Of a stretch of DNA of 21,565 bases, positions 6,829 to 21,216 are shown piece by piece. The position numbers were made by a program, and so were the translations under genes. The first letter of the stretch is position 1. The number at the start of each line of letters is the position of its first letter. A model generated the notes under the pieces. The model was not told the DNA's origin and did no database searches. It saw nothing but the letters and a program-made list of their open reading frames with translations. Source of the DNA: a virus; the IMG/VR virus record IMGVR_UViG_3300043399_000637, positions 1 through 21,565 of that record. The stretch is one strand, 5' to 3'.

Positions 6829-7548
6829 TTATTTTCTCTTACATCTTTCATTGTGGTATCTACCTATATTTCCAGCATTGCCAATAACCCCACAATGAAC
6901 ACATGATACTTTTTTATTATTTATAAGAGAAAATGTTCCAGCATTTTTAATCTTCTGTTTGTGTTCTTCTGATAATGATGTTCTTTTTACACCTTTAGAT
7001 GCTGCTATTAATTCACCAGATATCCATCTTGGATCATCATGTGTTGTATGAAAAACATTACCTAAAGAATCTTTTACAGTAATTTTACCAGCATTTTTAC
7101 CTTTCATAGATTCACTTCTTTTTTCAAGTGATTCTTTTGTTGGTGCAGGTCTTTTCTTCAATCCTTCTAAATATTTTTCACGTACTTCAGGTCTCTGCAT
7201 TGCTTCTTTAGTACGAACTGAAATTTTTTCTTTTCTAGAAATGATGTTTTCTTCATTTAACCAAGTATCATTTACATTTTTAGATAGATTATAATATTTA
7301 ATTTTAAGTTCTTCATCTTTAATGAATGATAGCCAATATTTTTCTCTTTGATATAAATCATTTCTATTGGTATAAACACGTTCTAGAATCTTACGTTTGA
7401 AGTCAGTGGGACGATGCCTGTGTGCCTGTCTCATCCATGATGATGAACAAATATATCCATCATCTTCTGACCCCCAATGCATACCGATATAGTATCTTTT
7501 ATGTTTACGATCAAACCAAATATAAACAAACCCATATTTTTCTTGCAT
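6829..7548 (-). CDS. Free-standing GIY-YIG homing endonuclease (Seg/Mob-like)
   Basis: A 239-residue protein. The N-terminal domain (about 1-95) has the GIY-YIG core as GFVYIW (residues 6-11) and RYYIG (18-22), with a candidate catalytic Glu69 in LYQREKYW. The middle holds basic helical repeats resembling nuclease-associated modular DNA-binding motifs (NUMOD3-like: RTKEAMQRPEVREKY around 112-126 and SLSEEHKQKIKNAG around 191-204). The C-terminus is a zinc-finger-like Cys216-x2-Cys219 ... His232-x3-Cys236. This layout fits mobile endonucleases of T4-like phages, which cut cognate DNA lacking the gene and spread by repair. It sits between gp13 and gp14 with its own exact late promoter and an AAGGAG ribosome site (plus-strand ctcctt at 7556-7561), and a second late promoter for gp14 lies inside its 3' end. 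Target specificity is not readable. Confidence 0.88.
   Translation of the reverse strand: MQEKYGFVYIWFDRKHKRYYIGMHWGSEDDGYICSSSWMRQAHRHRPTDFKRKILERVYTNRNDLYQREKYWLSFIKDEELKIKYYNLSKNVNDTWLNEENIISRKEKISVRTKEAMQRPEVREKYLEGLKKRPAPTKESLEKRSESMKGKNAGKITVKDSLGNVFHTTHDDPRWISGELIAASKGVKRTSLSEEHKQKIKNAGTFSLINNKKVSCVHCGVIGNAGNIGRYHNERCKRK
6918..6925 (-). promoter_or_regulatory. Late promoter (TATAAATA) for gp14, inside the endonuclease gene
   Basis: An exact TATAAATA on the minus strand lies about 93 bases upstream of the gp14 ATG, within the last 30 codons of the GIY-YIG gene. It would let gp14 be transcribed independently of the inserted gene. Confidence 0.55.
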
Positions 7549-8397: not shown

Positions 8398-9558
8398 ATG
8401 ATTACAGTAATTGGTGATTACATTAAAGATATTTATGTTTATGGGAATGTAACAAGAATTTCACCAGAGTCACCCATCCCAGTTTTTAATGAAGTTTCAA
8501 GAGAGATTAAAGATGGTGGTGCAGGAAATGTTTTAAATAACATTTCTGCTCTTGGTTCTAGTGTAAAAAAATACTTCTCATACAATTCAGTAAAAACAAG
8601 ATATGTCTGCAATAATCATATTCTTTTTAGATCTGATGATGAAAATTATCAACCCACAAAATTTAAAAATTTAGATCTCACTGATTCTAAGATCTGTGTG
8701 TTGTCAGATTACAACAAAGGTGCTTTGCATAATTCAATTGATATAATTAATCAGTGTAAATCTAAAAATAATTTTGTAATCGTTGATGTTAAACGACCAT
8801 TATCGTCATATGTTGGATCAGACATAGTTAAAATGAATGAATTAGAATATGCAAATTATGCTGATGATATTAATGATCACAAAAAATTGAATGAAAAATA
8901 CAACATAAATTCTATGGTAGTTACGTTAGGCAAAAGAGGCTGTGTCGTAATGTCAAAAGAATTTTCTGGTATAATCAAAACAAATGAACATGAAGTCATA
9001 GACGTTACTGGCGCAGGTGACGTATTCGTTTCATGTTTAGCACACTTCATGAGTTTAGGGTTTGGTTTACAGGAGAGTTGTGTTAAAGCAAACAAACTTG
9101 CAAGCATTTCTGTAACAAAATTTGGAACATATGTTTTGACAGAACAAGACATAAAGCAATGTAAGTTAGTATTTACTAACGGATGTTTTGATATACTTCA
9201 CAGAGGACATATTGAATATTTAAAAAGATCAAAAGAGTATGGAAATAGATTGATTGTTGGTTTAAATTCTGATGAGTCTGTGAAAAGATTGAAGGGAGAG
9301 AAGAGACCTATAAACAATCAGTATGATAGAAAATATGTTCTAGAAAATCTCGGATTCATAGACGAAGTTATCATCTTCGATGAAGACACACCGTATGAGT
9401 TGATTAAATATTTAAAGCCAGACATTATCACGAAGGGTGGGGATTATACTGAGGATACAGTCGTGGGAAACGACTTAGCAAGAGTCGTAATCATACCATA
9501 TTCAGAAAATTACTCAACAACTAAAATTATGGAGAGAATTTATGAAAAGAACAGTTAA
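8398..9558 (+). CDS. hldE: Compact HldE-like bifunctional heptose-7-phosphate kinase / heptose-1-phosphate adenylyltransferase
   Basis: A 386-residue two-domain protein. The N-terminal PfkB/ribokinase domain (1 to about 248) has VIGDYIKDIYVYG, RISPESPIPVF (20-30), GGAGNVLNN (40-48), SDYNKGAL (103-110) and the catalytic DVTGAGD motif (202-208). The C-terminal nucleotidyltransferase domain (about 255-386) has FTNGCFDILHRGH (259-271), GLNSDESVKRLKG, KGGDY (346-350) and STTKI (373-377). These match E. coli HldE (RfaE), which phosphorylates D-glycero-D-manno-heptose-7-phosphate at C1 and later adenylylates heptose-1-phosphate. It is about 90 residues shorter than E. coli HldE (477), with losses in the middle of the kinase and in the interdomain linker, but catalytic motifs look intact. 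It is the first gene of the operon and overlaps the cupin gene by 17 bases. Exact sugar specificity is inferred. Confidence 0.88.
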   Translation: MITVIGDYIKDIYVYGNVTRISPESPIPVFNEVSREIKDGGAGNVLNNISALGSSVKKYFSYNSVKTRYVCNNHILFRSDDENYQPTKFKNLDLTDSKICVLSDYNKGALHNSIDIINQCKSKNNFVIVDVKRPLSSYVGSDIVKMNELEYANYADDINDHKKLNEKYNINSMVVTLGKRGCVVMSKEFSGIIKTNEHEVIDVTGAGDVFVSCLAHFMSLGFGLQESCVKANKLASISVTKFGTYVLTEQDIKQCKLVFTNGCFDILHRGHIEYLKRSKEYGNRLIVGLNSDESVKRLKGEKRPINNQYDRKYVLENLGFIDEVIIFDEDTPYELIKYLKPDIITKGGDYTEDTVVGNDLARVVIIPYSENYSTTKIMERIYEKNS

Positions 9559-9898
9559 AAAAGGATGGGGAAGAGAAATTATCTTTGCTGATGAAAAGAA
9601 TTACTGTGGCAAGTTAATGGTATTTGATTTTAAAGGTTCAAAGTTTAGTATGCATTTTCATGCAGTAAAAGAAGAAAGTTGGTACGTTCAACAGGGTTCT
9701 TTTATTGTCAGGTTTATAAACACAATTGATGCAACAGTGCATGAAAAAGTATTAAATACAGGTGATACATGGAAAAATGAAGTGCTTGTTCCACACCAGT
9801 TAGAAGCGTTGGAAGACAATTCCATTATTTTTGAGGTGTCTACTAAAGATGATGTGTATGATAACTACCGAGTCATGCCGGGAGATAGTCAAAAATGA
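9542..9898 (+). CDS. Small cupin protein (mannose-6-phosphate isomerase-like fold)
   Basis: A 118-residue single cupin. The first motif includes FSMHFHAVKEESWYVQQG, giving candidate metal ligands His38, His40 and Glu44 or Glu45. The second includes GDTWKNEVLVPHQLEAL, giving His85. This is the ligand layout of metal-binding sugar-phosphate isomerase-type cupins. The opening GWGREIIFADEKNYCGKLM also resembles the C-terminal part of GDP-mannose pyrophosphorylase/isomerase enzymes. It lies inside the heptose operon, overlapping hldE by 17 bases and the HAD gene by four (ATGA), so it most likely acts on a related sugar phosphate or nucleotide sugar. It could supply an isomerase or epimerase step for which no gmhA is visible here, but this is speculation. 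Cupin fold confidence is high; function is unknown. Confidence 0.72.
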   Translation: MKRTVKKGWGREIIFADEKNYCGKLMVFDFKGSKFSMHFHAVKEESWYVQQGSFIVRFINTIDATVHEKVLNTGDTWKNEVLVPHQLEALEDNSIIFEVSTKDDVYDNYRVMPGDSQK

Positions 9899-10188
9899 TC
9901 TATATGATTGATGTGGATGGGACAATATGTGAAAATAAAAATAGTGATTACGAGAATTCAACCCCACTTTATGATAGGATTGAAAAGATAAATCGTTTAT
10001 ATGATGAGGGACATACGATCAATTATTGGACAGCACGCGGAAATACTACTGGAATCGATTGGAAACATTTCACAGAGCAGCAGTTAAAATCGTGGGGGTG
10101 TAAGTATCACTCGTTTAATACTAAAAAACCATCGTATGACGTATGGGTAGATGATAAGGCTATGAGTGATAAGGAGTTCTTTAAATGA
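9895..10188 (+). CDS. Minimal HAD-superfamily phosphatase (candidate GmhB substitute)
   Basis: A 97-residue HAD hydrolase with all four motifs in compact form. Motif I is DVDGT (nucleophile Asp6, acid/base Asp8), motif II is WTARG (Thr46), a lysine follows at 77/78 and motif IV is VDDKA (Asp85/86). There is no cap domain, which fits small-substrate or trans-capped phosphatases. In the ADP-heptose pathway GmhB, itself a HAD phosphatase of about 190 residues, removes the C7 phosphate from heptose-1,7-bisphosphate between the two HldE steps. This protein lies between hldE and hldD and is the obvious candidate for that step, although it is half the size of GmhB. The start overlaps the cupin stop (ATGA), and the stop overlaps the hldD start. 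Confidence 0.75.
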   Translation: MIYMIDVDGTICENKNSDYENSTPLYDRIEKINRLYDEGHTINYWTARGNTTGIDWKHFTEQQLKSWGCKYHSFNTKKPSYDVWVDDKAMSDKEFFK

Positions 10189-10976
10189 TGTTAGTCACTG
10201 GTTCAAAGGGATTTATAGGAAAGAATCTTGTAGAATCATTAGAAGATGATATCTATTCCATAGATATCGGAAATAGGAATCATATATTTTCAAATAATTT
10301 TAAATGGAATAAGATCAATGGCATATACCACCTAGGTGCGATATCCAACACGACTGAGACAGATTTTTCAAATTTATATAATTTTAATATCGATTATAGC
10401 ATTAAACTCTTTGAAAAAGCAATCGAGTATCAGATCCCGATTGTCTACGCATCATCAGCTTCTGTGTATGGAGAAGATACAAGAAACAATAAGATTCAAC
10501 CGTTGAATTATTATGCGTGTTCAAAAGCATACGTTGATCAGTGGGTGATGAACAATATTGGTAAATTTTCATATGTGATGGGTGCTAGATTTTTTAATGT
10601 TTATGGTAATCATGAAGAACATAAACTAGGACAAGCGAGTCCTATAACAACTTTTTCGTTGCAGGCAAAAGACACAGGTCAGATAAATGTGTTTGAAGGT
10701 TCTGAACACATCTACAGAGATTTTGTTAGTGTACAAGATGTAGTTAAATGCATCACAAAATTGCTTCCAAATGAGTCTGGAATATATGATGTTGGAACAA
10801 GTGATCCAATAAGTTTTATGGATGTTGCGGAAACTATTTGTAAAAAATATAATTCAAAAATTAATATTATAGAATTTCCGCAACATCTAAAAGGCAAGTA
10901 TCAAAATTATACTTGCGCTAAGAAGCGATTCTCAAATGATTTTATTCGAGTCCAAGAGTTTGTCGAATCTTTGTAG
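10185..10976 (+). CDS. hldD: HldD-like ADP-glyceromanno-heptose 6-epimerase (extended SDR family)
   Basis: A 263-residue NAD(P)-dependent epimerase. The Rossmann motif is GSKGFIG (6-12). The active site shows Ser91/Ser93 in YASSASVYG and Tyr110-x3-Lys114 in YYACSKAY. Then come ARFFNVYG and YRDFVSVQDVV. The C-terminal LKGKYQNYTCA followed by Arg/Phe-rich residues resembles the E. coli HldD end (LKGRYQAFTQA), which favours HldD over generic GDP- or UDP-sugar epimerases. HldD converts ADP-D-glycero- to ADP-L-glycero-D-manno-heptose, the donor for inner-core lipopolysaccharide. It is shorter than E. coli HldD (310). GGAG lies eight bases before the first of two consecutive ATGs. The last 35 bases overlap, tail to tail, the minus-strand kinase fusion gene. 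Confidence 0.83.
   Translation: MMLVTGSKGFIGKNLVESLEDDIYSIDIGNRNHIFSNNFKWNKINGIYHLGAISNTTETDFSNLYNFNIDYSIKLFEKAIEYQIPIVYASSASVYGEDTRNNKIQPLNYYACSKAYVDQWVMNNIGKFSYVMGARFFNVYGNHEEHKLGQASPITTFSLQAKDTGQINVFEGSEHIYRDFVSVQDVVKCITKLLPNESGIYDVGTSDPISFMDVAETICKKYNSKINIIEFPQHLKGKYQNYTCAKKRFSNDFIRVQEFVESL
10894..10916 (-). terminator. Possible intrinsic terminator of the leftward operon, inside hldD
   Basis: An 8-bp perfect stem (GCAAGTAT / ATACTTGC) with a seven-base loop is followed on the minus strand by CTTTTAG. It lies 26 bases beyond the stop codon of the leftward kinase fusion gene and within the 3' coding part of the rightward hldD gene. Stem and position fit a terminator. The U-run is only four long, so strength is doubtful. 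Confidence 0.42.
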
Positions 10977-11748
10977 CGGAAATTGAATGAATTTCTTCGC
11001 TGAATACTTCTTGTTCAATTTTATAACCTACATCTCTTCCATAAGTTATGTTAACGATATTAGGAACTACCATGATCGCGTACTGTCCGTAATAGTCAGG
11101 TGCTAAAGCTTTGTTAATACGTTCGATAACATCATTAACATTGAATGGATTGCTATCATTCCATCCTTGACAGTCCCTAATCATGATACAGACTTGTCCA
11201 GTCTTTGCCAATGCTCTTTTAAATAGTTCTTGATGACCATCATGCCACGGTTGCCATCTACCTAACATTTGAACTGTGGGGTTGCGGACATCGAATTTAA
11301 GAGGCTTAATGCCTCTAATTATATCTTGTGCTATACGTCTACCCATTCCCTTTGCATCAAAATGCGTGATCCTATAATCGTATTCTTTAGGGGGTTCAAA
11401 TATTTTATTTGTATCTTCATATCTTCCAGATTTAATTGTATCCATCCATATAACATAATCTGGTTTGCCATCTGTCGAGAACGCTTCTCTCATCTTTTCA
11501 GTCGGACAAATAAATTCACATATAGCATACTGTTTACAATTCATTGTTGATTTAGCCAAATCATTCATTCTATACGCTTGTCTTAGTCTTCCAGATTCAC
11601 TGAAATCCCAATCGTCAAATAAACTACGAACGCTGTCAGCGTTATACCACGCAGCTTTTGATTCATTTTGTTCAAGGTTATGGTACAGTTCTTCAGCAAG
11701 AGTAGTTTTACCTGAACCTGGTAAACCCATAATTAAAATCTTTTTCAT
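10942..11748 (-). CDS. Fusion of an APS-kinase-like domain and an HxGH nucleotidylyltransferase domain
   Basis: A 268-residue protein. Residues 1 to about 145 are a P-loop kinase resembling CysC/adenylylsulfate kinase: Walker A GLPGSGKTT (8-16), NADSVRSLFDDWDFSESGR (36-54), ICEFICPTEKMREAF and a shortened end with FEPPKEYDYRI. CysC normally has DGDNVR where this reads NADSVR. Residues about 155-268 are a separate nucleotidylyltransferase: GRWQPWHDGH (163-172), NPFNVNDVIERI (200-211), TYGRDVG and the terminal ISATKIR (256-262), closest in look to NMN- or cytidylyl-type enzymes. Kinase followed by HxGH domain is the order in animal PAPS synthase, but this second domain is far smaller than ATP sulfurylase. 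The upstream sulfotransferase favours a role in making PAPS; NAD or nucleotide-sugar metabolism is the alternative. It is the last gene of its operon, with its ATG overlapping the Cys-cluster gene. Confidence 0.75.
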   Translation of the reverse strand: MKKILIMGLPGSGKTTLAEELYHNLEQNESKAAWYNADSVRSLFDDWDFSESGRLRQAYRMNDLAKSTMNCKQYAICEFICPTEKMREAFSTDGKPDYVIWMDTIKSGRYEDTNKIFEPPKEYDYRITHFDAKGMGRRIAQDIIRGIKPLKFDVRNPTVQMLGRWQPWHDGHQELFKRALAKTGQVCIMIRDCQGWNDSNPFNVNDVIERINKALAPDYYGQYAIMVVPNIVNITYGRDVGYKIEQEVFSEEIHSISATKIRQTLGLE

Positions 11749-13407: not shown

Positions 13408-13964
13408 TACTTAATAACCATCAATTTCATTAGTATTTCTTGAACAACATTGTTTTGTGTTTGAACAATCATCTCACATTGCTCATTCGATAAAGATTGA
13501 AATATCTCTTGAAAAAATGGATTCAAAACATAATCTATTGAAACTACTTCAAAATTAACACCATACATTAAACCTAATGGTGTCTCACGTCCATTTGCAT
13601 CGATATCACTCTTATTTCTTTGTTGCGAAAACATAGCAAGAGTGTCTGGATAAATTGGTCTTTTGTGTGTAGGATCAATTAAAAACGTATCGTGTCTTGG
13701 ATGTGGGACTCTTACGTGAATAATAGCATTATTTACACACACTCTGTAAATTTCTTTCATTGCATGAAAGAACCCGTCACCTAAGTGTTCAAGAATATGA
13801 TGGCAAATAACTTCATCTACTGAATTGTCTTTAAATGGGAGTGTGTCTTTTTCTATATCCAAAACATAGTCAGGGTTACAATGAGAAGATATATCTATGT
13901 TTATAAAATTAGATACATTTTCAAATCCAGAACCAATATTAATCTTTAGTAAATTTTCTGTCAT
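13407..13964 (-). CDS. SAM-dependent methyltransferase (class I, Methyltransf_11 type)
   Basis: A 185-residue class I methyltransferase. Motif I is INIGSGFEN (9-17), the acidic ribose-binding residue falls in INIDIS (21-26), motif II covers LDIEKDTLPFKDNSVDEV (35-52) and the HHILEHL post-motif is at 55-61, all standard for small-molecule or sugar methyltransferases. RVPHPRHDTFLIDPTH in the middle resembles methyltransferases of sugar clusters. It is linked at both ends: its ATG overlaps the sulfotransferase stop by four bases, and its stop shares a base with the TPR-GT start. Substrate unknown; a sugar or polysaccharide hydroxyl is the likely acceptor from context. Confidence 0.82.
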   Translation of the reverse strand: MTENLLKINIGSGFENVSNFINIDISSHCNPDYVLDIEKDTLPFKDNSVDEVICHHILEHLGDGFFHAMKEIYRVCVNNAIIHVRVPHPRHDTFLIDPTHKRPIYPDTLAMFSQQRNKSDIDANGRETPLGLMYGVNFEVVSIDYVLNPFFQEIFQSLSNEQCEMIVQTQNNVVQEILMKLMVIK

Positions 13965-14755
13965 ATTAAACTCACGATTTGTTTATCAACGTTATTAAAA
14001 ACTTCAAATAATTGTTCACCTAAAACTTCAATAGGATCGCTAGATGTCTTATTTAGATTAGGACGAATATCATGAAGACCTTTAAATCCCCACATCTCAT
14101 CTTTTTGTTCTGAGCAAGTATTTTCTATGTTATTATATTGATGATTGTATTTTTCTATTTTAAGAAAATTGTAAATTTTTTCTAATTCATTGGATGGATT
14201 AGCAATTAAATCATCGTATTTTACAATATGAATATGATTTCTATCATATTGAAGTCCATGTTTCAATGACATAAATGGGTCAGAAGAATATTCTCTCCAC
14301 AAAAGCATTGATCTATTATATGTATTTATTTCAAGATTTCTTTGCAATAGCTGTTTATCTACAGCATTGTTTGGATCTTTTTCTATTAATTTTAAAAAAG
14401 AAACAATTTTTTCCGCTGTAGGTCGCCACGTAGATATTATTTTTGGATCATCATTAATATATTTTTTAATATTATTAACGTTTTTTGGCCAACCTCTATG
14501 CTTGTCTATAACATATTTTTTATTTACGTGACTATAAAAATTTTTTGCTAAAGATTTTTGAATATTTGTATTGACAGATTCATAGTCATATGTGTATTGA
14601 ATATTCAAATTTGTTAAATTTTGATCTAGTAAACAATATAGATCCATCAATGGACTTGTTGGAGAAACAAAAATATCAGGATTTTGATTTAAAATTGAAC
14701 CAAGAAGAGTGGAACCAGAACGTGCGATTCCACTTAGAAAAAATAAGTTGTCCAT
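13961..14755 (-). CDS. PAPS-dependent sulfotransferase
   Basis: A protein of about 264 residues with the sulfotransferase fold. Numbered from the first of two consecutive ATGs, the 5'-phosphosulfate loop is SGIARSGSTLLGSILNQNP (9-27). DKHRGWP (85-91) and STWRPTAEKIVSFLK (109-123) fit the 3'-phosphate-binding segment, and VKYDDLIANPSNELEKIYNFL (179-199) is the characteristic C-terminal strand-helix. These enzymes transfer sulfate from PAPS to a hydroxyl or amine of a glycan, lipid or protein tyrosine. I prefer the second ATG (14753-14755), because GAGG lies seven bases before it and only four before the first. A CATAAATA late promoter candidate lies just upstream. It heads a run of overlapping modification genes ending in the APS-kinase-like fusion, which could supply PAPS. 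Confidence 0.85.
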   Translation of the reverse strand: MDNLFFLSGIARSGSTLLGSILNQNPDIFVSPTSPLMDLYCLLDQNLTNLNIQYTYDYESVNTNIQKSLAKNFYSHVNKKYVIDKHRGWPKNVNNIKKYINDDPKIISTWRPTAEKIVSFLKLIEKDPNNAVDKQLLQRNLEINTYNRSMLLWREYSSDPFMSLKHGLQYDRNHIHIVKYDDLIANPSNELEKIYNFLKIEKYNHQYNNIENTCSEQKDEMWGFKGLHDIRPNLNKTSSDPIEVLGEQLFEVFNNVDKQIVSLI

Positions 14756-14762
14756 CATTTAA

Positions 14763-14784: not shown

Positions 14785-14792
14785 TATTTATG
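14785..14792 (-). promoter_or_regulatory. Late promoter candidate (CATAAATA) for the sulfotransferase operon
   Basis: CATAAATA on the minus strand fits NATAAATA and overlaps the stop codon of the upstream RCC1 gene, about 30 bases before the sulfotransferase start. It is one mismatch from the strict T4 sequence, so support is moderate. Confidence 0.45.
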
Positions 14793-15930
14793 CCCAGTAA
14801 TCTTCACTTATTGCACATGAAGATCGTCCAGCTGCTACCATTTTCCAATAAGTTCCGCTTGCAACTGTTTGTATTGGTGATGATTTGTTTGTTGTTGTAT
14901 TATCACCCAATTCACCAGAATTATTTCTTCCCCATAACCACAATGTACCATCAGTTTTGATTGCTGCTGTATGATCATATCCGCTTGATACTTGCTTCCA
15001 ATTAGTTCCACCTGAAACTGTTTGTATTGGTGATGATTTGTTTGTTGTTGTATTATCACCTAAATGCCCATCAAAATTCGCGCCCCATAACCACAATGTA
15101 CCATCAGTTTTAATGGCGGCTGTATGAAGTCTTCCACATGCAACTTGTTTCCAGTCAGTACCACCTGATATAGTTTGTACCGGCGATGATCTATTTGTTC
15201 TGGTATTATCACCTAATTGACCATAATTATTTCTACCCCATGTCCATAATGTACCATCAGTTTTGATTGCAACAGTATGCCCTGTTCCTTGAGCTACTTG
15301 TTTCCAGTTAGTACCACCTGCCACTGTTTGAACTGGTGATGATCTAGCTGTTCTATCATTAGTACCCAATTCTCCATAATCATTTCTCCCCCATGTCCAT
15401 AATGTACCATCTGTTTTGATTGCACATGTATTATCTTCACTGGTAGCACTCACTTGTTTCCAATTAAAACCACCTGACACAGTTAGCACAGGCGATGACT
15501 TACGTGTTGTAGTATTGTCACCTAATTGACCTCTAAAGTTATTACCCCATAACCATAGACTACCATCTGTTTTAATAGCGGCTGTATGATACCTCCCAAC
15601 AGATACTTGCTTCCAATTAGTACCACCGGATATTGTTTGAACTGGTGATGATCTAGTTGTTATTGTGTTATCACCTAATTGACCTTCACTATTGGAACCC
15701 CATATCCACAATGTGCCATCTGTTTTAATGGCTGCTTTATGTTCAGACGATCCGTTTATTTGTTTCCAATTAGTACCAGTTGCAATAGTCTGAACTGGTG
15801 ACGATCTAGTTATACCAGTACCATCACCTGCACTATAGCTCCATGACCACAATCCACCTTCAGAAAACAAATCTTTTCTAACAAAAACATCATCAAAATC
15901 TGTTCCATTTATTCTGAAATTAGTAGTCAT
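14788..15930 (-). CDS. RCC1-repeat seven-bladed propeller protein C (putative tail adhesin)
   Basis: A 380-residue protein. The short N-terminus NFRINGTDFDDVFVRKDLF carries an INGTD motif (7-11) shared with RCC1 protein B. From about residue 27 it is entirely RCC1 repeats of about 50 residues, each with LW-x-WG-x-N, GQLGDN, SSPVQT, NWKQVS and HTAAIKTDGT. I count seven, the number that closes an RCC1 beta-propeller. The first repeat has a degenerate start (LWSWSYSAGDGTG) and the last ends SCAISEDYWA. It is the third of three paralogs downstream of the tail fibre. It overlaps the upstream oxygenase-like gene by four bases. A receptor-binding or tail-tip role is inferred from position, repeats and the shared N-terminal segment. 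No signal peptide is visible. Confidence 0.82.
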   Translation of the reverse strand: MTTNFRINGTDFDDVFVRKDLFSEGGLWSWSYSAGDGTGITRSSPVQTIATGTNWKQINGSSEHKAAIKTDGTLWIWGSNSEGQLGDNTITTRSSPVQTISGGTNWKQVSVGRYHTAAIKTDGSLWLWGNNFRGQLGDNTTTRKSSPVLTVSGGFNWKQVSATSEDNTCAIKTDGTLWTWGRNDYGELGTNDRTARSSPVQTVAGGTNWKQVAQGTGHTVAIKTDGTLWTWGRNNYGQLGDNTRTNRSSPVQTISGGTDWKQVACGRLHTAAIKTDGTLWLWGANFDGHLGDNTTTNKSSPIQTVSGGTNWKQVSSGYDHTAAIKTDGTLWLWGRNNSGELGDNTTTNKSSPIQTVASGTYWKMVAAGRSSCAISEDYWA

Positions 15931-16427
15931 TCTTTTTCTCTTAATTTAAATAATTGAACTAATCCACCATTAAAACTATGAAATAACCATGGTCTAAATA
16001 ACATTCCTTGACCTGGTTTCAACACAAAGTCTATTTGTAAGTCCCATTCAAATAAATTTCTGTAATTAAAATTATGTTCGTCTAATGCAGTAGTTGCACC
16101 TGATTGATGCTCAAATATATTTACTGTAGTTTCAGTCAATGCACAGACAAAAATCCATTCATTAGTATCATCAAATCCTTCAAAATGAATCCAAGTAACA
16201 GGTTTTCTAAAAACACCAGAATTATTTTCATCAACTTCAATTTTTGTATTTAGAATTGAAGAAAACATTTCATTAGCGTTTTCTGGGATCATGTTGAAAT
16301 GTGGTATTTGATCGCCAAATTCAAAAGATTCGTATTTTAAATTAGCAGCAATATTGCAAAGTCTTTGTGCATCATTTTGATTGAAGAATCCATCAACTAC
16401 CATAATCTTAACTAAAGGATGTATCAT
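15927..16427 (-). CDS. Putative 2OG-Fe(II) oxygenase-like protein between RCC1 genes
   Basis: A 166-residue protein. The start LVKIMVVDGFFNQNDAQRLCNIAANLKYES looks like the N-terminus of prolyl-hydroxylase-type 2-oxoglutarate/iron dioxygenases. A double-stranded beta-helix is suggested by VTWIHFEGFDDTNEWIFVCAL, TTVNIFEHQSG and KPGQGMLFRPWLFHSFNGG. Candidate iron ligands are His81, Glu83 (HxE, where HxD is commoner) and His150. Arg163 or Lys161 could bind 2-oxoglutarate. The gene is linked by ATGA overlaps to RCC1 protein B upstream and RCC1 protein C downstream, so the three are made together. It might hydroxylate the propellers or act as a fold-derived assembly factor; both are inference. 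The HxE variant leaves open an inactive or non-oxygenase cupin-like protein. Confidence 0.55.
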   Translation of the reverse strand: MIHPLVKIMVVDGFFNQNDAQRLCNIAANLKYESFEFGDQIPHFNMIPENANEMFSSILNTKIEVDENNSGVFRKPVTWIHFEGFDDTNEWIFVCALTETTVNIFEHQSGATTALDEHNFNYRNLFEWDLQIDFVLKPGQGMLFRPWLFHSFNGGLVQLFKLREKE

Positions 16428-17656
16428 ATTGGGTCTGCTCTAAATGGATCTGAAGAGTCGTCACGTATACACGCTATATTAGAATATCCACCTGCAACTT
16501 GTTTCCAGTTAGTACCACCAGACACTGTTTGAACAGGTGATGATTTACTTGCTATACTATTATCCCCTAATTGTCCGTAATTATTTTTACCCCATGTCCA
16601 CAATGTGCCATCAGTTTTAATTGCTGCTATGTGAGTTGATGTAGTAGAAACTTGTTTCCAGTTAGTCCCACCGGATACAGTCTGAACTGGTGATGATTTG
16701 TTTGCTACCGTATTATCACCTAATTGGCCATTACCGTTTGCACCCCATGTCAATAAAGTGCCGTTAGTTGTAATAGCTGCGGTCATACCTTGGCCAGCAG
16801 AAACTTGTTTCCAGTTAGTACCACCAGTTACAGTCTGAACTGGAGATGACCTATTTGTTCTAGTATTATCACCTAATTGACCACTGTCATTCACACCCCA
16901 TAGCCACAGAGTACCATCAGTTTTAATAGCCGATGTGTGAGAACTTCCAGCAGAAACTTGTTTCCAGTTAGTACCACCAGAAATTGTTTGAACTGGAGAC
17001 GATCTAGTTGTTGTTGTATTATCACCTAACTGACCAGAAGAATTTCTACCCCATGTCCATAGAGTACCATCGGTCTTAAGTGCAACAGTGTTATCGCTAC
17101 CCGCATCTATTTGTGCCCATGAACCACTTATTAGTACTGGTGAATTTCTAGAAAGATCAGTACTATTTATTCCTAACTGCCCATATTCGTTATAACCCCA
17201 AGCCCATAATGAATTATCTGTTTTAATCGCAGCAGTATAAAGACCTCCACAAGATACTTGTTTCCAATTAGTACCAGCTGATATAGTTTGTACAGGAGTT
17301 GAGGGACTAATTGAACCATCTTGTTGGTTTCCTATTTGTCCTTGTCCATTTGAACCCCATAACCATAAAGTCCCATCAGTTTTAATAGAAGCTACATGCC
17401 TACGGCCAAAAGATACTTGTTTCCAGTTTGTGCCGCCTGATAATGTTTGAACTGGAGACGATCTTCTATGTGTAATACCAGAAGTACCAGTACCCAATTG
17501 ACCAAAATCATTTTCACCCCATAACCAAAGACCAGCAAACCTAAATGTATCAATTAGCGAAGGATAAACATCGATTAAATATTCGCGAGTCACCAAATCA
17601 GTGCCAATATCTGTTCCATTGATTGTATAGTTTGTATTAGCACCTACATATGGCAT
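16424..17656 (-). CDS. RCC1-repeat seven-bladed propeller protein B (putative tail adhesin)
   Basis: A 410-residue protein. The N-terminus has YTINGTDIGTDLVTREYLIDVYP (INGTD at 12-16), a short segment matching RCC1 protein C and probably the docking part. RCC1 repeats begin near residue 43, and seven can be counted. Repeat 1 is stretched (GTGTSGITHRR) and repeat 2 has an unusual loop (GNQQDGSISPSTPVQT). Repeat 3 is the most diverged, with SPVLISGSWAQIDAG in place of the usual SPVQTVSGGTNWKQVSAG. The last ends in a non-repeat tail, DDSSDPFRADPI. It is one base from the DUF4376 gene upstream and overlaps the oxygenase-like gene by four bases. A surface-binding role on the tail is inferred. Confidence 0.82.
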   Translation of the reverse strand: MPYVGANTNYTINGTDIGTDLVTREYLIDVYPSLIDTFRFAGLWLWGENDFGQLGTGTSGITHRRSSPVQTLSGGTNWKQVSFGRRHVASIKTDGTLWLWGSNGQGQIGNQQDGSISPSTPVQTISAGTNWKQVSCGGLYTAAIKTDNSLWAWGYNEYGQLGINSTDLSRNSPVLISGSWAQIDAGSDNTVALKTDGTLWTWGRNSSGQLGDNTTTTRSSPVQTISGGTNWKQVSAGSSHTSAIKTDGTLWLWGVNDSGQLGDNTRTNRSSPVQTVTGGTNWKQVSAGQGMTAAITTNGTLLTWGANGNGQLGDNTVANKSSPVQTVSGGTNWKQVSTTSTHIAAIKTDGTLWTWGKNNYGQLGDNSIASKSSPVQTVSGGTNWKQVAGGYSNIACIRDDSSDPFRADPI

Positions 17657-17657
17657 A

Positions 17658-18293
17658 TTAGAAGTTTACCTCTAAATTGATTGCATGTAATTCTTGCAGA
17701 GTTGTTGCATTATCTATTTCTATTACTTTAGATTGTTCCCAATTGAAACAGGTTTGGATATGAGTTTTTCCAGCAGAAACTATCGTAAACATATCACTCT
17801 TTGTAACTGACATCCATGTTTCTGGAAACTTCCAATTAATAGTTTCTTCTTCTGTCATTGCTAACCAAGTATCAAAGAATATCTCTCTTGAACCTCTTGC
17901 AGTATCAATTGATACTAATGTATTTTGAATTTCAAGTTTGATTCCAGAGTTTTCTTTCACGTATCTATTATTAGCAACGATTTCTTTTATACTATTCTTA
18001 ACAGAATCAACTGGTAAATCTCCAGGTATAAAGTACATCTGTGCTTCTGTATTAGATAAATTCCAATATGGTCCATCAAGTCTTTGTATCTTTGAGTTGA
18101 AATATGGTTGTGGCAATCCAACAACTGGTAAAATCTTAGTGTTTTCATTGATAATAATTGGATTTTTATTATCATTTCTCGTATCTAATGTGTAGGTAAC
18201 TTCACATTCTTCAAGAAGAACTTCTTCAAAATTGAGCTTGTTCCAATTTTTTGGTCCTAAAATAACATAATTATTATGAACTATTACAAACAT
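17658..18293 (-). CDS. DUF4376-type tail fibre assembly/accessory protein
   Basis: A 211-residue protein. The N-terminal half (MFVIVHNNYVILGPKNWNKL, then VVGLPQPYFNSKIQRLDGPYW) is typical of proteins encoded next to tail fibres in marine T4-like phages. The C-terminal half (from about residue 95) fits the DUF4376 domain: helical VKNSIKEIVANNRYVKENSGI, then VSIDTARGSREIFFDTWLAM, NWKFPETWMSVTKSDMFTIV and the closing ATTLQELHAINLEV. That domain is often found on phage tail fibre and fibre-assembly proteins. GAGGAA precedes the ATG in the 12-base gap after RCC1 protein A. RCC1 protein B starts one base after its stop. A chaperone or fibre-tip role for the neighbouring propellers is likely but not shown. 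Confidence 0.7.
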   Translation of the reverse strand: MFVIVHNNYVILGPKNWNKLNFEEVLLEECEVTYTLDTRNDNKNPIIINENTKILPVVGLPQPYFNSKIQRLDGPYWNLSNTEAQMYFIPGDLPVDSVKNSIKEIVANNRYVKENSGIKLEIQNTLVSIDTARGSREIFFDTWLAMTEEETINWKFPETWMSVTKSDMFTIVSAGKTHIQTCFNWEQSKVIEIDNATTLQELHAINLEVNF

Positions 18294-18305
18294 TTCTATT
18301 CCTCT

Positions 18306-19526
18306 TTATGATTCCGTAAATGTTACTGCTGCTGTAAAATTTCGACCAACAGATACTTGTTTCCAGTTAGTTCCAAAAGTTATAGTTTGCACCGGTGATG
18401 ATCTATTTGTTCTAGTATTATCACCGAGTGCACCATAGACGCCGCTTCCCCATGACCATAAAGTTCCATCAGTCTTGATAGCTGATGTATGATCCGCTCC
18501 AGCAGATACCTGTTTCCAATTAGTACCGCCTGATACTGTTTGAACTGGAGATGATCGATCTGTAAGATTATTAGTACCTAATTTACCATTAATATTTCTA
18601 CCCCATGACCATAAAGTTCCATCAGTCTTGATAGCTGATGTATGATCTGTTCCAGCAGATACCTGTTTCCAATTAGTACCGCCTGATACTGTTTGAACTG
18701 GTGATGATCTATCGGTTCTAGTATTATCACCTAATTGACCACCAGAATCTGGTGGTGTTTGACCTTCATTGAATGTATAATTGTTTCCCCATAACCATAA
18801 AGTTCCATCTGTCTTGATAGCAGCTGTATGAGAACCTCCACTAGAAACTTGTTTCCAGTTTGTTCCACCAGATACAGTTTGTACTGGTGATGATCTATTT
18901 GTTATGTCATTAGTTCCTAATTGACCTTTAGAATTTGAACCCCATAACCATAAAGTTCCATCTGTCTTGATAGCAGCTGTATGAGAACCTCCACTAGAAA
19001 CTTGTTTCCAGTTTGTTCCTCCTGATACAGTCTGAACTGGTGATGATCTATTCGTTATGTCATTAGTTCCTAATTGACCTTCAGATGCTCTTCCCCATGA
19101 CCATAAAGTTCCATCTGTTTTAATAGCTGCTGTGTGATTGGTAGTAGTAGATACTTGTTTCCAATTAGTACCACCAGATACTGTTTGAACTGGTGATGAT
19201 CTGTTTGTTATGTCATTTGTACCCAATTTACCATAACTATTTTGACCCCATGTCCATAGAGTACCATCAGTCTTGATGACTGCAATATGTGATGCATTAT
19301 CACAAGATACTTGTTTCCAATTAGTACCTCCAGATACTGTCTGAACTGGTGATGATTTAGAATTTACGGCAGATGTACCAGAGGTACCAACAGTATTATC
19401 ACCCAATGCGCCATAGCTATTTCTACCCCATGTCCATAACTGATTACCAACGTATCTTTCTAGTATATCAACATCTGTGATATATAAATTTTTTAATATA
19501 CCTTCAGGACCAGTAAAATTAGACAT
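18306..19526 (-). CDS. RCC1-repeat seven-bladed propeller protein A (putative tail adhesin)
   Basis: A 406-residue protein. The first 29 residues (MSNFTGPEGILKNLYITDVDILERYV) differ from the INGTD-type start of the other two paralogs. It then has seven RCC1 repeats of about 51 residues with very even sequence: LWxWGxN, SSPVQTVSGGTNWKQVS and SHTAAIKTDGT recur almost unchanged. Two blades have longer loops. One is in repeat 1 (TVGTSGTSAVNSK). The other, in repeat 5 (YTFNEGQTPPDSGG), is encoded by a stretch holding a small inverted repeat. At the DNA level, neighbouring repeats share identical tracts at a 153-base period, which indicates recent duplication or conversion. The start overlaps the tail fibre stop by eight bases. 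RCC1 propellers are best known from eukaryotic chromatin regulators; here the context makes a host-binding structure more likely. Confidence 0.83.
   Translation of the reverse strand: MSNFTGPEGILKNLYITDVDILERYVGNQLWTWGRNSYGALGDNTVGTSGTSAVNSKSSPVQTVSGGTNWKQVSCDNASHIAVIKTDGTLWTWGQNSYGKLGTNDITNRSSPVQTVSGGTNWKQVSTTTNHTAAIKTDGTLWSWGRASEGQLGTNDITNRSSPVQTVSGGTNWKQVSSGGSHTAAIKTDGTLWLWGSNSKGQLGTNDITNRSSPVQTVSGGTNWKQVSSGGSHTAAIKTDGTLWLWGNNYTFNEGQTPPDSGGQLGDNTRTDRSSPVQTVSGGTNWKQVSAGTDHTSAIKTDGTLWSWGRNINGKLGTNNLTDRSSPVQTVSGGTNWKQVSAGADHTSAIKTDGTLWSWGSGVYGALGDNTRTNRSSPVQTITFGTNWKQVSVGRNFTAAVTFTES
18738..18756 (-). repeat. Small inverted repeat inside the long loop of RCC1-A blade 5
   Basis: Seven-base arms (ACCACCA / TGGTGGT) surround a five-base loop. 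They encode most of the PPDSGG part of the extra loop. It lies exactly at the insertion that distinguishes blade 5 from the other blades, so it may be a relic of the insertion event. Confidence 0.5.
18787..18866 (-). repeat. 80-bp direct repeat, copy 1 (RCC1-A)
   Basis: This 80-base tract is identical base for base to 18940-19019, 153 bases away. It covers most of one RCC1 blade from the WG motif back through NWKQVSSGGSHTAAIKTDGT. Confidence 0.9.
18940..19019 (-). repeat. 80-bp direct repeat, copy 2 (RCC1-A)
   Basis: Second perfect copy of the tract at 18787-18866. The 153-base offset is 51 codons, one blade. Synonymous sites are identical too, so protein-level selection alone does not explain it. 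Confidence 0.9.
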
Positions 19527-21216
19527 TCTTTTCTAACTTTTCTATCTTAGCATTTAGTTCTTTAATTGCTTCAATTAAGAATCCAACTAAACCGTCATAA
19601 TTAACATTTTTAATTTCATTGTTTCCAACCAACATTGGAACAATTGATTCTGCCTCTTGTGCAATGATACCAGCAGATTTGTTACCGTTGTCTTTCCAAT
19701 CAAATGTAACACCTCGTAACTTACAAACCGTTTCTAACGCGTTTGAAATTGACTCAACGTTTGTCTTAAATCTTTCGTCGGATAATGAGTTAAATATCGT
19801 AGCGTTCAATGTTCCAGTAGAGGGAACAAAATAAAGTTTTGTTGTTGATATGACACCGTTAGACCATGAACCAGACGTGGCATTCGCCATCGGTATGTAA
19901 AATGTCTGTGAGTCGGTATTATTAGCGGTTAGAGTCGCACCGCCAGAAACAGTTGACCAATAGATGCTAGTTGCGTTAGACGTTAGTACTTGTCCGGCTG
20001 TACCAAATGAACCGTTTGCGACGATACCCGCACCAGCAGTTACGATCAATTCACCGGTAGATGCTATAGTTAAATTGCCTGAAACACTTCCGTTTGCAAA
20101 CGAGACTGTATTAGTAGTCTTATTAAAAGTAAAACTTGCTACTGCGTTTAAGAATCCGCCATCATTAAATTGTATATGTGTGTCAGACCCTGCAACAGAC
20201 GCCGCGGGTGTTGACCAATAAGTTGACGTTCCATTAGAAGTTAGTAGTTGTCCTGTGGTTCCAGTAGAACCGTTAGAAACAATTCCTGTTACTTGAATGT
20301 TGGAATTGAATATAGCATTCGCTGAAAATGTTAATACACCTCCAAGTGTGTAAGATCCAGAAGTATTCACATATGATGCAGCGGAAACTCCACCTAAGAA
20401 TGATGAGTTGTTTGCAGAAAGTGTTGCAACGTTAGAAGCAAGACCAGCAGACGTTTGATATCCAGATGCTGCGACTCCACCTAAGAATGATGAGTTGTTT
20501 GCAGTTCCAGAAAATGTAGTTGAATTGATAGAAGCATTTACAGTCGAGTTACCAACACTAATTGTATTCGACGTTTTGTTAAATGTAAACCCTGCAGTGG
20601 CATTTAATGAACCAGAATCATTAAATTGTATCTGTGTGTCTCCACCGGCAACAGATGCTGATATGGTTACAGTTGACCAATAAGTAGACGTGCCGTTAGA
20701 AGTTAGTAGTTGACCTGCGGTTCCAGTAGAACCGTTTGAAACAATTCCTGTTACTTGAATGTTAGCGTTGAATATCGTGTTTGCGCTGTGAGTATGTACA
20801 CCAGTAATCGTGTAATCTGCAGATGTATTTACAAACGCGTTTGCTGCTGCCCCTTGTAGTGCTAGTGCAGACGCAGCTGTTCCAGAAAATGATGTTGAGT
20901 TAATAATTGAGTTGACAGTGCTATTGCCGATTGATATAATAGATGTATTGACAACAACATTACCAATAGATATAACAGTACTGTTTACTACTGAGTTACC
21001 AACAACAAGTCTAGTAGGTTCAAGATTTGCTATACCAGATGAGTTAGATACAGACAATGTTGTTGAAGTTAAGACTGCATTGGCAGTAGAGTTACCAACA
21101 TAATAGCTTGAGTTATTAACTACTACGTTAGATCCTAATGAAAGTCTAGTTGAATTTGCTGAAAATGTAGTATTAACGACTAGTCCGTTTTTTACTACGA
21201 AGTCTCTATCTGCCAA
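19519..21216 (-). CDS. Tail fibre with C-terminal S74 intramolecular chaperone/peptidase domain
   Basis: A 565-residue protein. The N-terminus MADRDFVVKNGLVVNT is the usual start of structural fibre-like proteins in marine T4-like phages. The long shaft is poor in charge and rich in Asn, Ser, Thr, Val and Gly, with short repeats (VVGNSVVN, ISIGN, STVN) and two larger near-duplicate modules containing IQVTGIVSNGSTGT, QLLTSNGTSTYWST and IQFND. The C-terminus from Ser479 (LSDERFKTNVESI) to the end is a Peptidase_S74 domain, an intramolecular chaperone that drives fibre trimerisation and usually cleaves itself off at the Ser-Asp site. It ends in a coiled-coil-like EAIKELNAKIEKLEKNV. The start codon is TTG (21214-21216), with AAGGGGAG eight bases upstream. 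A late promoter at 21240-21247 precedes it. Confidence 0.88.
   Translation of the reverse strand: MADRDFVVKNGLVVNTTFSANSTRLSLGSNVVVNNSSYYVGNSTANAVLTSTTLSVSNSSGIANLEPTRLVVGNSVVNSTVISIGNVVVNTSIISIGNSTVNSIINSTSFSGTAASALALQGAAANAFVNTSADYTITGVHTHSANTIFNANIQVTGIVSNGSTGTAGQLLTSNGTSTYWSTVTISASVAGGDTQIQFNDSGSLNATAGFTFNKTSNTISVGNSTVNASINSTTFSGTANNSSFLGGVAASGYQTSAGLASNVATLSANNSSFLGGVSAASYVNTSGSYTLGGVLTFSANAIFNSNIQVTGIVSNGSTGTTGQLLTSNGTSTYWSTPAASVAGSDTHIQFNDGGFLNAVASFTFNKTTNTVSFANGSVSGNLTIASTGELIVTAGAGIVANGSFGTAGQVLTSNATSIYWSTVSGGATLTANNTDSQTFYIPMANATSGSWSNGVISTTKLYFVPSTGTLNATIFNSLSDERFKTNVESISNALETVCKLRGVTFDWKDNGNKSAGIIAQEAESIVPMLVGNNEIKNVNYDGLVGFLIEAIKELNAKIEKLEKNV
20211..20310 (-). repeat. Tail fibre shaft repeat, copy 1
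   Basis: This 100-base stretch aligns without gaps to 20673-20772, with about nine differences. The offset is 462 bases (154 codons). It encodes the IVSNGSTGTTGQLLTSNGTS module of the shaft. Confidence 0.75.
20673..20772 (-). repeat. Tail fibre shaft repeat, copy 2
   Basis: Second copy of the shaft module (IVSNGSTGTAGQLLTSNGTS). A shorter 29-residue repeat (NNSSFLGGV) also recurs at an 87-base offset near 20387 and 20474. Confidence 0.75.

Follow-up and report, generated by a model that had tools for sequence, protein, structure and literature searches.

Three RCC1 propeller genes downstream of an S74 tail fibre as a candidate receptor-binding cassette of T4-like phages

Introduction

Gene 38 comes after gene 37 in phages of the T2 type. 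Its product, gp38, is the adhesin at the tip of the long tail fibre, in which hypervariable receptor loops are carried on a constant scaffold (PMC12892980). Propellers built from RCC1 repeats have been described in other settings, such as UVR8, RCC1 and the RCC1-like domains (RLDs) of HERC2. In phages of the Rak2/GAP32 type, which are jumbo phages, RCC1 repeats are found in several copies in some members (the multicopy sets of 121Q, PBEC04 and phAPEC6), and the RCC1-like protein gp1 of GAP32, described as a DNA condensation protein, was detected in virions by mass spectrometry (PMC5259590). A three-leader cassette was not seen described for these phages, and we found no description of a three-slot recombining RCC1 cassette in the open-access literature. 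As bacteria, too, commonly have RCC1 proteins, a eukaryotic origin is not implied.

The window, which is the whole 21.6 kb stretch of DNA analysed here, comes from a T4-like phage whose large terminase is nearest to those of the Sinorhizobium phages phiN3 and phiM12 (58%). Its three RCC1 proteins share the repeat signature, the seven blades and the fold with UVR8, the HERC2 RLDs and RCC1. Unlike these eukaryotic proteins, they are encoded in a phage tail operon, carry slot-specific leaders and have repeats that evolve in concert, and a Ran, chromatin or UV function would not be expected of them, nor would bacteria be expected to offer a Ran or chromatin partner. Their predicted propeller fold also matches the GAP32 protein K4F6B8, whereas gp1 of GAP32 is distant in sequence. 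The closest working analogue may be gp38, with its hypervariable segments on a constant scaffold and a position next to the distal fibre gene that the first RCC1 gene of the window would share. However, gp38 has glycine-rich motifs and folds as a polyglycine-II sandwich, while the window encodes RCC1 propellers in three genes, and these are not members of the gp38 family.

Results

The genes of interest form a series on the minus strand, running from the S74 fibre through T1, the DUF4376 gene, T2 and the 166-aa ORF to T3 (Table 1). The T1 gene overlaps the upstream S74 ORF by 8 bases. From its PHROG matches, the S74 ORF was inferred to encode the distal tail fibre, and the DUF4376 protein, which resembles tail-fibre families, is likely a fibre assembly factor. 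The 166-aa ORF had no Pfam or PHROG match. The initial annotation had placed the RCC1 genes directly downstream of an S74 tail fibre and in alternation with accessory genes; both statements hold, with the Pfam S74 domain placed C-terminally in the upstream ORF and the DUF4376 and 166-aa ORFs lying in between.

Table 1. Features of the fibre and propeller region of the window
Feature	Position	Strand	Description
S74 tail-fibre protein	19519..21216	-	Pfam PF13884, E 3.9e-15, C-terminal; many PHROG tail fibre/baseplate families
RCC1 propeller, slot type T1	18306..19526	-	406 aa; leader MSNFTGPEGILKNLYITDVDILERYVGNQ, then seven repeats
DUF4376 protein	17658..18293	-	Pfam PF14301, E 3.3e-7; PHROG 10508 tail fibre, E 5.2e-13
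RCC1 propeller, slot type T2	16424..17656	-	410 aa; seven repeats after a 42-residue leader that includes a helix
166-aa ORF	15927..16427	-	Near T2/T3 in some relatives
RCC1 propeller, slot type T3	14788..15930	-	380 aa; 26-residue leader MTTNFRINGTDFDDVFVRKDLFSEGG, seven repeats, the first degenerate

Elsewhere on the fragment, a sugar/sulfur island was seen at 8398-10976 (+) and 10942-11748 (-), with a fusion of PfkB kinase and cytidylyltransferase (HldE-like), a cupin, an NAD-dependent epimerase and an adenylylsulphate-kinase-like protein. Together with a sulfotransferase at 13961-14758, it may point to sulfation or glycan modification encoded by the phage. A 239-aa ORF amid the neck genes (6829-7548, minus strand) resembles a GIY-YIG homing endonuclease on visual inspection, with no Pfam match at E 0.001.

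All three RCC1 ORFs are complete and matched the Pfam families RCC1 (PF00415), RCC1_2 and WD40_RLD with E values from 1e-51 to 1e-90. For PF00415 (which with PF25390 covers the RCC1/RCC1-like domain) the values were 1e-63 to 1e-71, past the gathering score in each protein. Pfam alone counted 6, 7 and 7 repeats, the count of 6 being explained by the degenerate repeat 1 of the shortest protein, T3. When the proteins were split at the LWxWG motif, each gave exactly seven repeats, some 51 residues long, as first read from the sequence, with an 11-residue insert in repeat 5 of T1.

Viral contigs were searched and yielded 239 relatives, from which 70 loci were retained (L numbers below). Among their 127 non-redundant complete RCC1 ORFs, 111 had 7 repeats, five had 14, four had 21 and one had 28, so that 121 of the 127 distinct proteins carried a multiple of seven. 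Three further ORFs scored as 8 are really 7, as an insertion interrupts one of the repeats, and the non-heptad exceptions were single ORFs with 27, 6 and 4 repeats. The heptad count of the window proteins is therefore more than chance, and multiples of seven are the numbers that closed propellers require.

The closed seven-bladed propellers that had been proposed were borne out by structure prediction for T1 and T2, the two of the three proteins that were modelled. The AlphaFold2 models (T1, pLDDT 79 and pTM 0.83; T2, pLDDT 82 and pTM 0.82) each contained about 28 blade strands (7 x 4). The best folds for the T2 model were UVR8 and HERC2 domains, with a target TM of 0.81-0.88, and the T1 model matched HERC2 RLD2 with a Z of 53 and an rmsd of 1.6 A over 357 residues. 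The leaders had low confidence in both models; that of T2 was predicted to form a helix at residues 24-35.

In relatives, RCC1 propellers occur directly in tail-fibre chains. A single chain of 2445 aa in L028 carries four propellers of seven repeats, stretches of collagen and, at the C-terminus, S74. L023 has a chain of 1117 aa with one propeller, collagen and S74, and L046 a chain of 1566 aa, truncated by the edge of the locus, with one propeller and S74 but no collagen. The window fibre shares the S74 domain of these modular S74/collagen fibres. Unlike in L028 and L023, where RCC1 heptads are built into the fibre, each propeller of the window is encoded as an independent protein and has its own leader.

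These chains bear on another suggestion. Going by the name 'regulator of chromosome condensation', such proteins might act intracellularly, with DNA or a host regulator as possible targets. PHROG places RCC1 families under DNA metabolism, and an intracellular role was raised as a possibility for phAPEC6 (PMC7247149). However, the name derives from the eukaryotic function, the propellers are found within S74 fibre chains, the genes of the window adjoin a fibre gene and a DUF4376 gene, and the face of the propellers is hypervariable, as described below. An intracellular role is therefore very improbable.

Other fused forms were also observed. The T2 protein of L043 (6522-10424, 1300 aa) has three heptad propellers, with Ig-like-looking linkers of some 100 residues between them. 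In L046, a T3 protein (9164-11485) has two propellers with a T3-like leader between them; it matches two separate T3 genes in L041 and is likely a gene fusion. In BFVD, the predicted folds of A0A2K9VI36 and A0A2K9VHT9, from the Pseudomonas phages PollyC (with a T7-type fibre N-terminal domain) and Littlefix (a tail fibre protein), match the propeller and could represent an independent fibre-propeller fusion.

The leaders fall into three related yet distinct types, T1 (..SPEGDLENYFVTEYWLIDQYVGD), T2 (TNFxDSxGVDLGxKLVTKxYLIDVYP) and T3 (..NGxDFDDVFVRxDxFxEGG). Using leader-typing HMMs trained on the same locus set, so that the typing is not out-of-sample, the order T1, T2, T3 was found in the typed loci with zero violations beyond duplicated sets and contig ends. 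T2 and T3 are repeated as a pair in L067, and a further T1 begins after T3 in L043. The slots grow independently, with T2 and T3 each seen at 14 and at 21 repeats. A window-like DUF4376 ORF was present in 62 loci including the window, with its usual place between T1 and T2; a window-like S74 fibre ORF was present in 42 loci, and a window-like 166-aa ORF in 29 including the window.

A search with the T2 leader only, with no repeat sequence, returned loci with RCC1 repeats in 60 of 60 cases; many share contigs with loci of the first set, which makes this a check of the leader on a sample that is not fully independent. Among the ORFs uncut by the locus end, 14 repeats were counted in two, 4 or 5 in another two, and 7 in the others. 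The idea that the leaders are general tail modules was rejected on the T2 leader, whose matches in viral contigs were all to RCC1 proteins, and on a search of phage records with the leaders.

By tblastn against phage records, the T3 and T2 leaders matched the cyanophage isolate S-SRM01 (Kyanoviridae, from a Singapore reservoir) and otherwise gave chance-level matches; the T1 leader did not match S-SRM01 in this search. In S-SRM01, T1, DUF4376, T2 and T3 lie downstream of the distal tail-fibre gene, with six repeats in T1 that are either real or collapsed. The RCC1 proteins of this Synechococcus phage are gp335, gp337 and gp344, and gp336 is its DUF4376 protein. The layout search thus showed that the modular three-gene set after an S74 fibre, first noticed in the window, is kept in relatives and in a cultured phage. 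The window phage need not be marine: among cultured phages, the closest to have this layout originated in a freshwater reservoir. The single-cell genome of Marine virus AG-345-E08 (L081) has three RCC1 genes in a similar gene order with unrelated-looking WxLxxxY leaders. As the layout is shared there with other leaders, the three-gene arrangement may be older than the leaders.

The fixed order can be read in more than one way. The three proteins could form one hetero-oligomeric tip, a T1:T2:T3 complex in which the leaders bind each other, instead of three separate heads. The leaders look mutually homologous, and each type is found once, in fixed order, in most complete loci. However, a 1:1:1 ratio is broken by duplicated T1 or T3 genes (L023, L041, L052, L055 and L067) and by slots with 14 or 21 repeats (L033, L045, L051 and L062). 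We therefore regard a single mixed tip as possible but rather doubtful, and three separate heads as the preferred reading.

Between close relatives, the propellers diverge down to about 75% identity, whereas the leaders and neighbouring genes are mostly 84-99% identical. L016 and L019 have flanks that are 94-96% identical over many kb and T1 leaders that are 98% identical, while the propellers are 76% (T1), 84% (T2) and 99% (T3) identical. Similarly, L023 and L028 share 98% identity in DUF4376, 99% in the relative of the 166-aa ORF and 92-94% in the leaders, but 75% in the propellers. This turnover with constant leaders is the pattern of a receptor-binding module being replaced.

Within the repeat, columns 6, 8, 9, 17, 19, 40 and 41 were hypervariable on a constant scaffold. 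With the columns chosen by amino-acid entropy, which inflates pN, pN/pS was above 1 at hypervariable columns in 31 of 44 loci against a median of 0.29 at conserved columns, and in the window it was 1.41 against 0.26. Column 6 aligns with W302 of UVR8, columns 40-41 with W285/R286 and column 4 with W300. In UVR8, W302 and W285 are at the dimer interface and W300 belongs to a buried ring (PMC7455749). The alignment thereby places columns 6 and 40-41, the hypervariable columns that were located on a structure, on the face used by UVR8 for dimerisation.

When repeats were compared within the same column at fourfold degenerate sites, third-base identity reached 0.63 for repeats of a single protein and 0.60 for repeats compared between the three genes of a genome. 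The controls gave 0.37 (a different column, matched for codon box) and 0.40 (codon use of the other genes). Same-column identity was at or above the first control in 35 of 35 testable loci and exceeded the second in 32 of 35. Between orthologues, fourfold identity was 0.38-0.40 whether or not the position matched. The effect in the window was moderate, at 0.50 across genes against 0.39-0.41. The repeats thus evolve in concert across the three genes, and codon bias was ruled out as the source of their likeness by the two controls. Short-read assembly of 153-bp repeats can yield chimeras, but an assembly artefact is disfavoured, as the concerted pattern is repeated in the S-SRM01 isolate (0.80 against 0.38) and in the single-cell genome of AG-345-E08 (0.75 against 0.43). 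In L020, two variable patches occur in differing combinations among repeats and genes; four-gamete counts are not decisive here, as recurrent mutation is also able to produce them.

A diversity-generating retroelement (DGR) could also produce hypervariable positions against an otherwise constant scaffold in a protein of receptor-binding type. No reverse transcriptase (PF00078) was found in 13 related records of up to 259 kb, some of which may be fragments, as the window itself is. The variable codons of L020 also differ at third bases. A DGR origin was rejected on these two grounds, and is the least probable of the explanations considered.

The propellers could instead be accessory decorations of the virion, or structural spacers, with variability that reflects drift on an exposed surface and not receptor binding. 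RCC1 folds are general protein-binding scaffolds, and the adhesin function is itself a proposal. However, pN exceeds pS at face positions while the scaffold is constrained, and the propellers diverge far more than the leaders, DUF4376 and flanks in close relatives. Both variable patches were, moreover, common to just one repeat pair in the genomes tested. We consider a purely decorative or spacing role unlikely.

Discussion

The cassette probably encodes three receptor-binding heads of the tail, in which a slot-specific leader docks a propeller with a diversifying face. The adhesin role suggested by the initial annotation was supported by the propellers in S74 fibre chains, the hypervariable face and the turnover with constant leaders, while the location in the virion, the binding of receptors, the docking by leaders and the recombination mechanism are inferred. 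Points that the annotation had missed are the three position-specific leaders, the concerted evolution of the genes, and the known occurrence of RCC1 in bacteria and in a phage virion. Each leader (T1, T2 or T3) would direct its protein to a docking site of its own, either on the baseplate or on the distal tail fibre, and the DUF4376 protein would probably aid assembly. The propeller would be a rigid scaffold presenting, on one face, a few hypervariable side chains per blade that touch receptors on the host surface.

Homologous recombination or gene conversion among the approximately 21 blades of the three genes could shuffle whole propellers as well as residues of the face without disturbing the leaders. 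Recombination between blades would be possible because the scaffold DNA stays alike within a genome. Selection together with such intragenomic recombination would reshuffle the propeller faces. It is a little short of an even prospect that the cassette is a self-renewing receptor-binding repertoire, with about 21 codon-matched blades in three slots serving as a recombination pool from which new adhesin surfaces could arise in the absence of a dedicated mutator such as a DGR.

DNA metabolism and 'chromosome condensation' are the usual labels for phage RCC1 proteins. Our evidence favours a different view, an adhesin scaffold, widespread among T4-like phages, whose propeller face changes fast while its three docking leaders remain constant. 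If this is true, it would explain a common annotation puzzle and provide a structural marker for the receptor-binding proteins of uncultured phages. It would also offer a natural example of diversification through blade shuffling, which could be tested in the cultured phage S-SRM01.
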